Source: a virus
Length of the DNA: 36,391 bases
IMG/VR virus record: IMGVR_UViG_3300048591_000730
Span: 1 to 36,391 of that record
Direction: 5' to 3' (one strand)
The position numbers were made by a program, and so were the translations under genes. Every line of letters begins with the position of its first letter. Position 1 is the stretch's first letter. The notes under the pieces are model-generated. The model was given only the letters and a program-made list of their open reading frames with translations. It ran no database searches and had not been told where the DNA came from. Positions 76 to 35,899 of the stretch are shown in pieces.

Positions 76-107
76 TGACACAGATTCGCAGAGGTTTGAC
101 ACACTTT
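74..107. repeat. Left phage end with two transposase-type binding sites
   Basis: Two copies of a TYTGACACA motif lie at 74-82 and 95-103, exactly 21 bp apart (two helical turns). Positions 85-107 are a perfect 23-base inverted match to 35845-35867 at the right end. Paired, phased sites at each end are what MuA/Tn552-type transposases bind. No protein-coding potential is seen between 107 and 165. Confidence 0.8.
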
Positions 108-11575: not shown

Positions 11576-11605
11576 GGTAGGGCGACGGTGTCCTCACCGC
11601 GCCGC
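11576..11605. repeat. GTAGGGC-type palindrome at a gene junction
   Basis: This copy of the family GGTAGGGCnnCGGTGTC..ACCGCGCCGC fills most of the 48-base gap between the tail tube gene (stop 11614) and the next start (11565). The arms around GGTGTCCTCACC pair to form a hairpin in the transcript. Confidence 0.8.
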
Positions 11606-13318: not shown

Positions 13319-13330
13319 TTTAGGTGTGGT

Positions 13331-13347
13331 GCAGGCATCTTGCCTGC
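13331..13347. repeat. GCAGGCA palindrome at a gene junction
   Basis: The arms GCAGGCA and TGCCTGC (7 bp) are separated by TCT and lie in the 32-base gap between two tail genes. The same element recurs at 13892-13908 and 17766-17782. Confidence 0.85.
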
Positions 13348-13875: not shown

Positions 13876-13891
13876 TGGTTGTTAGTGTGAA

Positions 13892-13908
13892 GCAGGCATC
13901 CTGCCTGC
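13892..13908. repeat. GCAGGCA palindrome at a gene junction
   Basis: The arms GCAGGCA and TGCCTGC are separated by TCC and sit three bases beyond the stop of the connector gene. Compared with 13331-13347, only a loop base differs. Confidence 0.85.
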
Positions 13909-17758: not shown

Positions 17759-17765
17759 ATGTGGG

Positions 17766-17782
17766 GCAGGCATCTTGCCTGT
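17766..17782. repeat. GCAGGCA palindrome at a gene junction
   Basis: This third copy, with GCAGGCA and TGCCTGT arms, lies between the portal stop at 17782 and the zinc-ribbon gene start at 17758. One arm base has diverged, so the outer pair is a G-T wobble. Confidence 0.75.
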
Positions 17783-20008: not shown

Positions 20009-20076
20009 GGTAGGGCAGCGGTGTCCCACCGCGCCGCCCCATCGTCAGGTAGGGCAGCGGTGTCCCACCGCGCCGC
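20009..20076. repeat. Two tandem GTAGGGC palindromes
   Basis: Two near-identical copies, 20009-20037 and 20048-20076, repeat with a 39-base period in the gap upstream of the portal gene. Confidence 0.85.
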
Positions 20077-23595: not shown

Positions 23596-23624
23596 GGTAG
23601 GGCTGCGGTGTCCTCACCGCGCCG
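23596..23624. repeat. GTAGGGC palindrome overlapping a stop codon
   Basis: This copy supplies the stop codon (23614-23616) and last residues of the holin-lipoprotein gene on the minus strand. It shows how such elements reshape C-termini. Confidence 0.8.
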
Positions 23625-24314: not shown

Positions 24315-24448
24315 GGTAGGGCAGCGGTGTCCCACCGCGCCGCACACCAGGTAGGGCAGCGGTGTCTCACCGCGCCGCACACCAGGTAGGGCAGCGGTGT
24401 CTCACCGCGCCGCACACCAGGTAGGGCAGCGGTGTCTCACCGCGCCGC
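24315..24448. repeat. Four tandem GTAGGGC palindromes, 35-base period
   Basis: Copies start at 24315, 24350, 24385 and 24420, each 29 bases plus a short spacer, with an exact 35-base period. They lie between the terminator at 24452-24489 and the holin-like gene. The second to fourth copies share the variant TCTCACC. Confidence 0.9.
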
Positions 24449-27060: not shown

Positions 27061-27281
27061 GCAGCACCCCGATCAACGCCGGCCAGGCATACTACCGCCT
27101 CGGTGGTGAGCTCATCACCGCCAGCCAGAGCCTGACCTCCCTCTGCGCCATCCTGGTCAAGGAGACCGACGCCGACCAGAACACCCTCCGCGAAGCCTAC
27201 GCCCTCTATCAGGCCATCGAGAATTTCCGCCAACGGATTACCAGCAACCCCCCAACCACTCTCCGTCAACCTAAGCAATGA
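27057..27281 (+). CDS. Small early protein, unknown
   Basis: A 74-residue helical protein (MSSTPINAGQAYYRLGGELI and on) coupled by ATGA overlap at both ends. No known family. Confidence 0.6.
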   Translation: MSSTPINAGQAYYRLGGELITASQSLTSLCAILVKETDADQNTLREAYALYQAIENFRQRITSNPPTTLRQPKQ

Positions 27282-28150
27282 ATAGCTCTATCATCACCCT
27301 GGAACCCCAAGCCTCGGACCTGTTCGCGCAGGTCAATGCCCTGCATCAATCCAACATCGGCGCCGCCCAGAAGACCGCCGGTAACGCCATCCAGATCGGC
27401 TTCCTCCTGCACCAAATCAAAGAGAAGGTCGGCCACGGAAACTTCACCCAGGCCATGGAAGACCATGCGCCTGGTGTCAGCCAGCAGTGTTGCAGCAACT
27501 ACATGCGGCTGGCGGTCGAGCGCCTCGTCGAGCACCGCGCCCGCCTGCGGCTAGCCGAGACCAATCCACCCATGGAAATTCCCCAGGATGGGAAATTACC
27601 AACTGTTGGTAATTTGGATTCCGCCCCCCTGCCGCTGCCCAAAAACGCCCTGCCCAAGGACCTCATGGAGCAGGCCCGCAAAGATGTCGAGGAGATCTCC
27701 TGGCTCACGGTCGACACCAAACCCGAAGAGCTAACCAACGGCCTCAGCGGCAAGGACCTGACCGAGCTCTACCGCGACTACGGCATCATCCGCCCCAAGC
27801 TGCCGAAGACATACAATCCGCCCGCGCCGCAGACACCCGAGGAAGTCATCGCCGCCGAGAACCAACACGCCGAAGACCTGCTCAGCGATGCCGAGTATCA
27901 GATGAACGCCATCCAGATGTCGCTCCCGATGCTCACCGTGCGCGTCGCCCCCAAGCGCTGGAAAGAGTTCCTCCGCAACGTCGTCGCCGTCACCAAGGCC
28001 ATCCGCCCCCTCACCAGGCGCAAAGCCGACAAGCCCGCCAAGACCAAGAAGACCGTCGGCCAACTCGCCGCCAAAATCGCCAACAAGGTAGGGCGCGGTG
28101 TCCCTACCGCGCCGCCGAAACTGAAGGCGAGCACCCTAACCTCGGCCTAA
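27278..28150 (+). CDS. DUF3102-like protein
   Basis: The 290-residue protein has an N-terminal segment that fits DUF3102 (IQIGFLLHQIKEKVGHGNFTQ, then QCCSNYMRLA), a helical domain found near replication and transposition genes in phages and mobile elements. The middle and C-terminal parts are unrecognised. A GTAGGGC palindrome at 28087-28116 encodes VGRGVPTAPP near the C-terminus. It lies just before the transposase gene, so it may assist transposition. Start is ATG 27278. Confidence 0.65.
   Translation: MNSSIITLEPQASDLFAQVNALHQSNIGAAQKTAGNAIQIGFLLHQIKEKVGHGNFTQAMEDHAPGVSQQCCSNYMRLAVERLVEHRARLRLAETNPPMEIPQDGKLPTVGNLDSAPLPLPKNALPKDLMEQARKDVEEISWLTVDTKPEELTNGLSGKDLTELYRDYGIIRPKLPKTYNPPAPQTPEEVIAAENQHAEDLLSDAEYQMNAIQMSLPMLTVRVAPKRWKEFLRNVVAVTKAIRPLTRRKADKPAKTKKTVGQLAAKIANKVGRGVPTAPPKLKASTLTSA
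28087..28116. repeat. GTAGGGC palindrome inside the DUF3102-like gene
   Basis: Perfect 8-bp arms GGCGCGGT/ACCGCGCC with a GTCCCT loop. Read in frame as VGRGVPTAPP, the same peptide as in the transposase gene at 30157-30186. Confidence 0.9.
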
Positions 28151-28153
28151 GCC

Positions 28154-30262
28154 ATGATCTCCGATCTGACACCATACCAGCCGCAACCCGTCCCGGCCCC
28201 TGCGAAGGCGCGCCCCACGCTCAGCTTCGCCATCCCGCCCGACCAGGCCGCCGCGCTCTCCGCGTTCATCCCGCACGACGAGATGCAGCGCGTCCGTGTC
28301 CTGCTGGCTGCGTTGTCAGACATCCATCGCGCCCCCAAGATTCTGCCCGCCTGCAATCGCCTTGCAGCCGGCATGCACCGACGCGGCACGAGTGCCCAAC
28401 GGCTCCGGGCGCTCTACTACGCCTACACGCGCGGCACCGACACCTACCCGGCCGGCGACTGGCGGATTCTCCTTGACGGCAACAAGGCCCGCATCGACCG
28501 CCCCACCGACGAGCAGAGCATCAAGCATCGCCCGGCGTTCATCGAGTTCTGGCGCAAGCTCGGCGAAGATTTTCACCAGGATTGGGCCGCCGCCCACGGC
28601 GAACTGCTCCGCATCTGGACCAACGGCTACGACCAACTCGGGCGCAAATACACCGCGATCCCCGGTTACGACTCCTGGCCCGTGGCTGACGCCTGGCTCG
28701 GGCACCCGTCCGGCTGGAGCTACGCGAACCTGATGCGTTACCAGTCCGACCTCTACGACCAGGTCGCCGCCCGCATCGGTCACGCCAAGGCCAGCGCCCA
28801 CCGGCTGCCGGTCCTCACCACTCGCGTCGGGTTGGAGTTCGGCCAGTTCATCGAGCTGGACGATCATGAGTTCAACCAACGCACCCTCTTCCAACGCCGA
28901 CCCATGCGCCCGCTCGGGTTCGGTGCGGTGGAAATCCTCAGCGATTGTCCGGTGCACATGGGTTTCAAACCTACGCTCTGGGACTACGAAGCCGAAGTGA
29001 AGCGCAAGCTCACGGAGCGCGAGTTCATGTGGTTCGTCGTGTCGCTCCTGACGACGTTCGGTTATCGCGCCGACATCGGCACCACCTTGATCGTCGAGCG
29101 CGGCACGGCGGCCATCCGCAAAGAGTTCGAAGCCCGCCTGCTCGCCGTCAGCAACGACAAGATTGTTTCCTACGTCGGCGGTCGCTTCGGCAAGCCCTCG
29201 CACGCGGGCCAGTTCGAAGGGCGGTCAAAGGGTAACTATCGCACGAAGAAACTCGTTGAAGGTTTCTGGGCCATGGTTGACAACCAGACCGCCATGCTCC
29301 CGGCCCAGACCGGCCGCGGTCGCGACGACGCCCCCGAAGGTTTCACCCCGTCCGCCGGTGCGGAGCAATACACCGCCCGCGTGTTCCGCGCCGCCGACCA
29401 GGCCGGGCTCAGCGCCGAGCAGATCGCGCAGTTGCAATTCCCTTACCCGACCTACCAGCAGTGGCGCGAGTGGGCGATGGACGCCGTCAACCGCATCGCG
29501 CGCACGCGTGAGCACCAGCTCGAAGGCTGGGATAAACTCGGCTTCGTGCAGCCCGTGTGGCGCTTGCCCGCCATCGCCGGACAGGATTCGCCCTGGCTCC
29601 CCTGGCAGAACTTCCTCGCGCTGCCGGACACGCAGCAGGCTGTCGTCAAGTCGATGCTCGATGCCGACCGCTCGCTCATCAAGACCATGCGGCTCAGCCG
29701 GCACGAAGTGAAGTGCGCAAACCTGCACCTCATGACGAAGCTGCCGCTGGAGCTGATGTCCGAACTGGTCGGACCCGAGAACGCGCTCTCCGATCCTTTG
29801 GAAGTCAAGAGCGGTCTGTTCCGTTTCGAGTGCGCCGAGATCGACTCCGACCCGCTGGAGTTTTACGCCCGCGACTTCCGCAGCCAGGCGTTTCTCGCGA
29901 ACGGAACCAAGTGCACCGCGTATGTCAATCCCTACGCCCCGACGCACCTGGTGGCTTACGACGCGTCCGGCAAATTCGTTGCGGCCTGCCCGCGTTACGT
30001 GCGTGCGGTCCGCACGGACGAGCACGCGATCGAGAAGCTCATGGGTGCGCAGCAACAATTCGAAGCCGCCGCGCGCGTCCGCCTGAACCTCCGCCACTCC
30101 GACCAGGCCGCCGCCAAGCAGCAGATGCTCGCGAACAATACCCGCGTGCTAGCAGAGGTAGGGCGCGGTGTCCCTACCGCGCCGCCCGCCGCCCTCGACG
30201 ACGACACCGCTGATTTACTCGCCCGCTCGGGCGAGGTGAACCCCGAAGAAGACACCTGGTAA
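28154..30262 (+). CDS. MuA-type DDE transposase
   Basis: The 702-residue protein drives replicative transposition. The RNase H-type catalytic core lies at about 228-375. The first catalytic Asp is D236 in FIELDDHEF. The second position is occupied by E315 in LIVERGTAA, where Asp is usual. The third is E369 in KKLVEGFW. The 79- and 54-residue spacings resemble those in MuA (67 and 56). Residues 420-650 form the Mu-type C-terminal region. A palindrome at 30157-30186 adds VGRGVPTAPP near the end. It precedes the MuB-type ATPase gene. Start ATG 28154. Confidence 0.9.
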   Translation: MISDLTPYQPQPVPAPAKARPTLSFAIPPDQAAALSAFIPHDEMQRVRVLLAALSDIHRAPKILPACNRLAAGMHRRGTSAQRLRALYYAYTRGTDTYPAGDWRILLDGNKARIDRPTDEQSIKHRPAFIEFWRKLGEDFHQDWAAAHGELLRIWTNGYDQLGRKYTAIPGYDSWPVADAWLGHPSGWSYANLMRYQSDLYDQVAARIGHAKASAHRLPVLTTRVGLEFGQFIELDDHEFNQRTLFQRRPMRPLGFGAVEILSDCPVHMGFKPTLWDYEAEVKRKLTEREFMWFVVSLLTTFGYRADIGTTLIVERGTAAIRKEFEARLLAVSNDKIVSYVGGRFGKPSHAGQFEGRSKGNYRTKKLVEGFWAMVDNQTAMLPAQTGRGRDDAPEGFTPSAGAEQYTARVFRAADQAGLSAEQIAQLQFPYPTYQQWREWAMDAVNRIARTREHQLEGWDKLGFVQPVWRLPAIAGQDSPWLPWQNFLALPDTQQAVVKSMLDADRSLIKTMRLSRHEVKCANLHLMTKLPLELMSELVGPENALSDPLEVKSGLFRFECAEIDSDPLEFYARDFRSQAFLANGTKCTAYVNPYAPTHLVAYDASGKFVAACPRYVRAVRTDEHAIEKLMGAQQQFEAAARVRLNLRHSDQAAAKQQMLANNTRVLAEVGRGVPTAPPAALDDDTADLLARSGEVNPEEDTW
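30157..30186. repeat. GTAGGGC palindrome inside the transposase gene
   Basis: Identical over 30 bases to the copy at 28087-28116 and read in the same frame, giving VGRGVPTAPP about 25 residues before the transposase C-terminus. Confidence 0.9.
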
Positions 30263-30278
30263 GAACCCACAAAAGCAA

Positions 30279-31271
30279 ATGAAGTATCAACTCGCAGAAA
30301 ACGACCGACGCACCCTCGAACAACTGAAGGCCGAGCAGGCCCTCGAAATCTCCGCCGCGGATTTCGTCCGCAACTACCTGCCGTTCTCGGCGGGCAAGTG
30401 GAGCAAGATCCTCGACGCCATCGACCCGGCCGCGCCGGACTCCTACCTCGACAGCATCAAGCCGGACACCGCCCGCGCCTTGCTCGATGATCTCAAGGAG
30501 ATCCTCATCAGCATCCCGCGCTTGCGCGCCCAGGCCGAGCGCCTCTCGTCCACGACGATGCTCGACCTCACCCAGTTCCGCGCCGTGAAGACCGCCGTGG
30601 ATGAGGCCACCACCAAGCGCAACCCGGAGCGCCTGGTCAAGTACCTCGCGCCGACCGGTGGAGGCAAAACCAACCTCTGCTCGTACCTCCGCGCCAAGTG
30701 CCAGGCGAAAGTCGTCGAGTCCCGCGAAGCCTGGAAGCGCAGCTACTTCACCGTCCTCCACGACTTGGCCAGCGCGCTCGGCTGCCGTCTCAACGACGAG
30801 TCACGGCCCTCCGCCATCGAGGACATGCTCATCGACTTCCTCGCCAACCAGCGCACCGTGCTGGTAATTGACGAAGCGGAATTTTTCGGCCCGGCCGGCA
30901 TCAACGGTCTCAAGCTGCTCCTCAACAAGACACGCCTCGTCGTGGTCCTCTGCGCCATCGCCGCGCAGCACGACAAGTGGAACCGTTACTACCCGGAGGA
31001 GTCCGCCCAGCTCGACCGCCGCACCCACGCCGTGGTCCGCCTCAGTGTCATCAGCCCCGAGGACACCAAGAAATTCTTCCCGCCGAAGCAGTTCGAGAAC
31101 GAGGATTCCTCACTAGCACGCATCTCCGAGGAGGCAACACGCTTCGGCGCGTATTCTCTCGTCGCCCGCGTCGCCCACATCCTCGGCAAGACCGAGAAGG
31201 CCGACAGCAAGGAAGTCGAGAACGCCATCAAGCGCGCCCTCCGCGCCATGAACCGCACGCCGTCAAGGTAA
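30279..31271 (+). CDS. MuB/TniB-type AAA+ ATPase
   Basis: The 330-residue protein has Walker A LAPTGGGKTN (K130), Walker B TVLVIDEAEF (D198, E199) and an N-terminal HTH-like part (about 5-60) as in MuB. MuB-type proteins bind target DNA and activate the transposase. The first glycine of Walker A is replaced by Ala. It follows the transposase by 16 bases. Start ATG 30279. Confidence 0.85.
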   Translation: MKYQLAENDRRTLEQLKAEQALEISAADFVRNYLPFSAGKWSKILDAIDPAAPDSYLDSIKPDTARALLDDLKEILISIPRLRAQAERLSSTTMLDLTQFRAVKTAVDEATTKRNPERLVKYLAPTGGGKTNLCSYLRAKCQAKVVESREAWKRSYFTVLHDLASALGCRLNDESRPSAIEDMLIDFLANQRTVLVIDEAEFFGPAGINGLKLLLNKTRLVVVLCAIAAQHDKWNRYYPEESAQLDRRTHAVVRLSVISPEDTKKFFPPKQFENEDSSLARISEEATRFGAYSLVARVAHILGKTEKADSKEVENAIKRALRAMNRTPSR

Positions 31272-32587: not shown

Positions 32588-32588
32588 A

Positions 32589-32618
32589 GGTAGGGCGCGG
32601 TGTCCTCACCGCGCCGCC
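32589..32618. repeat. GTAGGGC palindrome downstream of the coiled-coil gene
   Basis: Begins one base after the stop at 32587. Arms around GGTGTCCTCACC form a hairpin. Confidence 0.85.
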
Positions 32619-32776: not shown

Positions 32777-32805
32777 GGTGTGGCGCGGTTGTCCTCTCCG
32801 CGCCG
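32777..32805. repeat. Degenerate GTAGGGC palindrome
   Basis: Begins three bases after the stop at 32773. Diverged from the consensus by several bases but retains GGCGCGGTTGTCC and CGCGCCG arms. Confidence 0.65.
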
Positions 32806-35844: not shown

Positions 35845-35899
35845 AAAGTGTGTCAAACCTCTGCGAACCACCGCGATCACCTGGTCAGACTGTGTCAAA
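35845..35899. repeat. Right phage end with two transposase-type binding sites
   Basis: TGTGTCAAA occurs at 35849-35857 and 35891-35899, exactly 42 bp apart (four helical turns). Positions 35845-35867 form the 23-base inverted match to 85-107. CTGTGTCA at 35890-35897 mirrors TGACACAG at 76-83. Confidence 0.8.

Follow-up and report, generated by a model that had tools for sequence, protein, structure and literature searches.

In-frame GTAG-tagged REPs of a Verrucomicrobiota family in two adjacent genes of a putative Mu-like phage

Two adjacent genes of a 36.4-kb virus record carry, toward their 3' ends and in the same reading frame, identical copies of a 31-nt repeat, AGGTAGGGCGCGGTGTCCCTACCGCGCCGCC, which is a GTAG-tagged REP of a family found in Verrucomicrobiota. 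Very probably, this REP family colonised a Mu-like phage or prophage by dispersal of the RAYT type, as we infer, with selection acting on the coding result. The record was analysed over its whole length and is called the window here. With a 23-nt terminal inverted repeat, a MuA-type transposase and a MuB-type ATPase, it is, judging by its sequence, a Mu-like phage or prophage, probably with host DNA at both of its ends. The features concerned are the following.

85..107, plus strand: terminal inverted repeat, left copy, perfect, 23 nt
27278..28150, plus strand: ORF of 290 aa, function unassigned; its REP is part of a C-terminal extension that the homologue in the viral record L001 lacks
28086..28116, plus strand: intragenic GTAG-type REP, read as VGRGVPTAPP, with the stop of ORF 27278-28150 about 11 codons further on
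28154..30262, plus strand: MuA-type transposase of 702 aa; the REP lies in a variable linker before the C-terminal end
30156..30186, plus strand: identical intragenic GTAG-type REP, read as VGRGVPTAPP, with the stop of ORF 28154-30262 about 26 codons further on
30279..31271, plus strand: AAA ATPase, MuB-type DNA transposition protein
35845..35867, minus strand: terminal inverted repeat, right copy, 23 nt

An extra tgtgtcaaa near the right terminal repeat has the look of the transposase-binding ends of Mu-like phages. Beside these Mu-like ends, the early genes lie on the plus strand and the late genes on the minus strand, in opposite directions.

The initial annotation had described two copies identical over 30 bases, both encoding VGRGVPTAPP near the C-termini, and both statements held, the identity extending to 31 nt. 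At the window's length and G+C content, an identical 31-nt pair is expected by chance about 8 × 10-10 times. The 40-nt flanks of the two copies agree at only 11/40 and 7/40 bases, which is background, and the 31-nt repeat is thus the copied unit rather than a part of some longer duplication. The two-copy picture itself was right as to the pair, but the pair belongs to a larger set, since 12 copies of the family exist in the window, all of them on the plus strand.

As the remaining copies in the window differ from the pair, which is identical over 31 nt and spaced by only 2.07 kb, local gene conversion, or else illegitimate recombination, might have made one copy from the other, and the shared frame would then represent one event copied once. 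We regard this as unlikely, because similarity of sequence stops at the very borders of the repeat and an outside donor was available: the 27-mer of the phage copies, with five occurrences in one listing of copies (two of these in the window), is also present in a host genome at G004:C108. Among the viral contigs, the exact 27-mer was found in no other contig.

Anatomy and distribution of the REP family

The repeat is composed of an unpaired GGTAG tag, a 9-bp stem and a 4-nt loop, and GGTAG precedes the stem in both phage copies and in most of the host copies. The GTAG-tagged REP super-family is defined, in the available part of its description (PMC3733652), by a GTAG tag, a stem of 5-13 bp, a loop of 2-20 nt, compensatory changes and frequent head-head dimers. 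The tag, stem and loop found here fall within this definition. The changes in the stem were compensatory in 48 of the 58 two-mismatch host copies, versus 1.3% expected for random pairs of changes (the count covers all 58 two-mismatch copies listed outside genome G003, from 22 genomes of a 387-genome draw). Eight of the ten non-compensatory copies came from one genome. In genome G257, eight copies have a G-A/A-G double mismatch at the same place in the stem, a non-Watson-Crick variant common in one genome. The 16 stem types picked by hand are 100% paired, a figure that is partly by choice, because they were selected as well-paired types. The family is dispersed in multiple copies (1 to 45 per genome in 23 genomes), and inverted pairs, that is, head-head dimers, exist in host genes, with none in the window. 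In short, the repeat is a GTAG-tagged REP of a Verrucomicrobiota family.

The repeat was recognized in 23 of 23 genomes that had been chosen as its carriers, where a reversed-pattern control gave 0, and in 23 of the 387 genomes drawn from the phylum, G003 being common to both sets. In the remaining 22 carriers of the draw, the listed copies deviate from the pattern at two places. Scanning bacterial genomes yielded at least 120 stretches, and most of the 80 shown are titled as Verrucomicrobiota lineages and some otherwise, although the titles of MAGs may be wrong. A variant of the REP with an A bulge, which occurs in the window, was found in none of the 23 repeat-bearing genomes and, in two-mismatch forms only, in one of the 387 genomes of the phylum; the assignment of a phage host by this variant was therefore dropped. 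With a looser pattern, the same family was recognized in two other viral records, one of 35.9 kb (L183, L184 and L186) and another (L185), and the window proteins tested against these stretches had no match in them. An ORF in L184 appears integrase-like by eye.

The phage genes and their relatives

The initial annotation had assigned the two REP-bearing ORFs to a DUF3102-like protein and a transposase, both as transposition genes. The second assignment stands, since the 702-aa protein matches phrog_310 (MuA-type transposase) with an E-value of 2.2 × 10-6. For the 290-aa protein, however, Pfam gave nothing and PHROG only a weak match, to a family of unknown function, so that the label of a DUF3102-like transposition gene is not established. 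The only relatives of the transposase found above 50% identity are in L001 and L002, two near-identical viral records in which the protein is about 51% identical and the repeat is absent. For the window protein P0001 and the MuB-type protein, no closer relatives were found in viral_contigs, while P0002 matches the two near-identical records in viral_contigs, none in genome_contigs, and distant homologues in 36 of the 387 phylum genomes.

After a shared NN, the transposase tail measures 40 aa in the phage and 41 aa in L001, and the ends are conserved. The tail region varies freely among 12 aligned, more distant homologues from Verrucomicrobiota (taken from the 30 loci L153-L182, after leaving out those with a minus-strand match or no reported match), and the REP in the transposase thus occupies a variable linker. 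Since the repeat-free tail of L001 is equally long, a gain of ten residues without compensating loss is not demonstrable in the transposase. In the case of the 290-aa gene, the L001 homologue stops just before the position of the REP, and the REP together with the next ten residues therefore constitutes a C-terminal extension; an in-frame stop there would cost the gene little, so that this gene says little about selection on the frame. Clean insertion, which the initial annotation had proposed to confirm by an alignment of homologues, was thus not borne out in the phage genes. The observation that it had named as evidence against an insertion, a related segment in a repeat-free homologue, was not encountered either: the L001 tail matches the REP at 14 of 27 positions, and 51% of shuffles are as good.

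The presence of the same peptide in two adjacent genes, each time near the C-terminus, might suggest co-option, in which the phage would retain the REPs for the hairpins they form in the transcripts or because they tag both proteins in a functional way. We consider this highly improbable, because the homologous genes of L001 are without the peptide, the tail region is variable in the 12 aligned homologues, and the peptide also occurs in unrelated host enzymes.

Reading frames of copies within host genes

In the 160 host loci listed, 279 distinct copies were recognized: 221 are intergenic or partly genic, and 58 are intragenic, in frame, as is also recorded for the super-family. These loci comprise 120 among the matches listed (at least 120) and 40 further regions chosen by hand in the 23 genomes. 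Genes were called with a home-made codon model that was trained on host loci with the repeats masked. The count was made with a looser pattern, scores partial overlaps as intergenic, and overlaps with an earlier count of 212 copies, 51 of them intragenic.

All ten of the REP-bearing host genes chosen for a Pfam search gave a match, that of L083 only below the curated cut-off. The REP peptide lies just before the activation domain in MetH (L072), within the protein in UvrA (L046), internally in a class I tRNA synthetase of the IleRS type (L010), and before the DUF3656 domain in a U32 peptidase (L044). The complete decamer VGRGVPTAPP, which the initial annotation proposed to look for in Verrucomicrobiota proteins, is encoded by ORFs of the host loci L082 and L083. 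In uvrA, two genomes (L046 and L052) have an inverted REP pair in frame at the same position, with differing peptide sequences, which may reflect either common inheritance or repeated insertion, and the stretch is absent from all nine other relatives aligned (from the 29 loci L228-L256; those with a minus-strand match or no reported match were left out). In this host gene, therefore, the stretch was gained without loss of the frame.

The frames are distributed unevenly. The sense intragenic copies of hosts number 28: the VGRG frame accounts for 21, a GRA[RG]C-type frame for six, and the frame of the tag's TAG for one, a degenerate copy. Among the copies with the stem type of the phage, the VGRG frame was found in 16 of 17 sense copies (two-sided p = 3 × 10-4 for two equally likely frames). 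As the members of a dimer cannot count as independent, and 14 of the 21 VGRG copies are near another copy, the unclustered single sense copies were counted separately, and seven of these nine are in the VGRG frame. The 30 antisense copies are divided among a RRGEDTAPY frame (18), a GAV.TPRPT-like frame (nine) and a third frame (three). As the sense intragenic copies of hosts are mostly in the VGRG frame, the frame shared by the two phage copies is to be expected.

As to the cause of the shared frame, the initial annotation had offered two suggestions. That the repeat tolerates only this frame is contradicted by the phage copy, in which four of the six frames are open, two of them sense, and by host proteins that carry the others. 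Selection to avoid stops was rejected as the full cause, because the frame bias exceeds simple stop avoidance. The peptide of the VGRG frame is small, Gly/Pro-rich and free of cysteine, whereas that of the other open sense frame is Arg-rich and contains a cysteine, and this difference may be what causes the bias.

A bias beyond stop avoidance, with two sense frames open and 16 of 17 copies of one stem type in the same frame, would also be produced by target-site phasing without selection, if the REP machinery preferred a motif whose codon phase in G+C-rich genes gives VGRG. We consider this distinctly unlikely: the base before the GG of the tag is little biased (A 32, C 22, G 19 and T 27%), and copies with the stem type GGCGGGCT favour the other frame (GRAGC in three of three), a preference that speaks for an effect of the peptide or for dimers passed on by descent.

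In the preferred reading, namely colonisation by host REPs with selection on the coding result, a REP-associated tyrosine (HUH) transposase of the host, RAYT/TnpAREP, would copy the unit in the form of single-stranded DNA. Insertions would be lost when the TAG of the tag fell in frame, when the downstream frame was shifted, or when the added peptide was damaging. Insertions would survive where the protein gains a small Gly/Pro-rich peptide in a variable linker, as in the transposase tail, or at a dispensable C-terminal end, as in the 290-aa protein. The shared frame would then need no function of the peptide, which may be a tolerated by-product. One of the two open sense frames is strongly favoured, and the choice of frame could serve as a gauge of the resistance of proteins to small inserts.

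Orientation, copying and comparison with known REPs

The 12 family copies of the window are arranged in eight separate sites, which include singles, a pair 39 nt apart and a tandem array of four with a 35-nt period. A second REP-like family, TGTGGNGCAGGCATCTTGCCTGC, is present at three sites; it has matches in 11 of the 23 repeat-bearing host genomes, some of them GTAG-tagged. Besides the two intragenic copies, the sites are as follows.

11576..11603, plus strand: REP of the same family, intergenic
13325..13347, plus strand: second REP-like family, between listed ORFs
13886..13908, plus strand: second REP-like family, between listed ORFs
17760..17782, plus strand: second REP-like family, between listed minus-strand ORFs
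20009..20074, plus strand: two A-bulge-variant REPs, 39 nt apart, intergenic
23596..23623, plus strand: REP of the same family; a minus-strand ORF overlaps it with its 3' end
24315..24446, plus strand: four A-bulge-variant REPs in a 35-nt tandem array
32588..32618, plus strand: REP of the same family, 94% identical, immediately following the TAA of the gene before it
32777..32804, plus strand: REP of the same family in degenerate form, just downstream of a TAA

All 11 REP-like sites (eight of the family and three of the second family) are thus on the plus strand, although they span genes of both directions (p = 0.001, treating the sites as independent and calculated after the pattern had been noticed). 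In the 23 repeat-bearing host genomes, by contrast, copies exist on both strands overall. This one-way orientation is the most unusual feature of the window. The REP is also denser in the phage, with three matches in 36 kb, than in the hosts searched, where the highest counts with a similar pattern were 43 (in 4.7 Mb) and 45 (in 7.9 Mb).

We propose that single-strand copying coupled to replication in a transposable phage would account for the orientation. Carried further, and only tentatively, the Mu-like phage may be a strand-biased trap and vehicle for host REPs: if REPs were copied as single strands into the lagging strand while the phage transposed replicatively in one direction, all REPs of its genome would end up in one orientation. 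Phages would in this way carry REP families from host to host, and their own transposition proteins would acquire a stereotyped peptide. Should the same one-sidedness be seen in further phages, transposable phages would offer a natural test of whether the copying of REPs keeps to the replication fork.

The available parts of two papers (PMC8266576, PMC3733652) treat REPs as presumably non-autonomous elements that HUH-type RAYT transposases copy. RAYT-family genes (PF01797) exist in 21 of the 23 repeat-bearing genomes. However, 50 PF01797 loci, fetched with up to about 1.5 kb on either side, gave no clear pattern of a dedicated RAYT beside family REPs; only three of them (L132, L134 and L257) hold a family REP, and the copying machinery is accordingly a presumed one.

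In-frame palindromes, as first described in this DNA, were right in kind, and have been known for bacterial genes since 2013. In the available part of that work (PMC3733652), intragenic GTAG REPs are already reported, most of them in Opitutus terrae, a verrucomicrobium, and they include copies in uvrA of O. terrae and in tRNA synthetase genes of other bacteria. What is added here is the phage as carrier, a measurement of the frame preference, and the one-sided orientation. Among the open-licence papers listed, no title on REPs inside phage genes was found, and the word "phage" has no occurrence in the main text of Di Nocera 2013 (PMC3733652). In-frame REP peptides, known from bacterial genes, occur in phage genes too.

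The initial comparison with RPE-type palindromes in coding sequence was apt insofar as host-type palindromes do lie in frame here; like the Rickettsia palindromic elements in the available description (PMC3733652), they are read in frame inside unrelated protein genes. The family name was the wrong one, however, because the intragenic RPE-4 and RPE-6 of R. conorii are classed there among CGTC repeats, whereas the phage element is GTAG-tagged and lies outside Rickettsia; identity with a Rickettsia palindromic element was thus dropped. With the REP/RAYT (TnpAREP) systems, so far as the available part of PMC8266576 describes them, the present family shares the GTAG hairpin, the presence of PF01797 genes in most of its genomes and inverted REP pairs in hosts, but differs from those systems in that few PF01797 loci hold a family REP. 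As to a REPtron, in which a RAYT is flanked by cognate REPs, the observations are PF01797 genes in 21 of the 23 genomes and a family REP in three of the 50 loci. The closest likeness is to the GTAG REPs as far as they are set out in PMC3733652, including those of O. terrae, to which the likeness is by description, the O. terrae consensus sequence being outside the comparison. The tag, the short hairpin, the covarying stems, the head-head dimers of hosts and sites near 3' ends are common to both, as are in-frame genic copies, uvrA and tRNA synthetase genes among them. What distinguishes the present case is the carrier, a Mu-like phage, and the arrangement of the REPs there as singles or as direct tandems of one orientation instead of head-head dimers.
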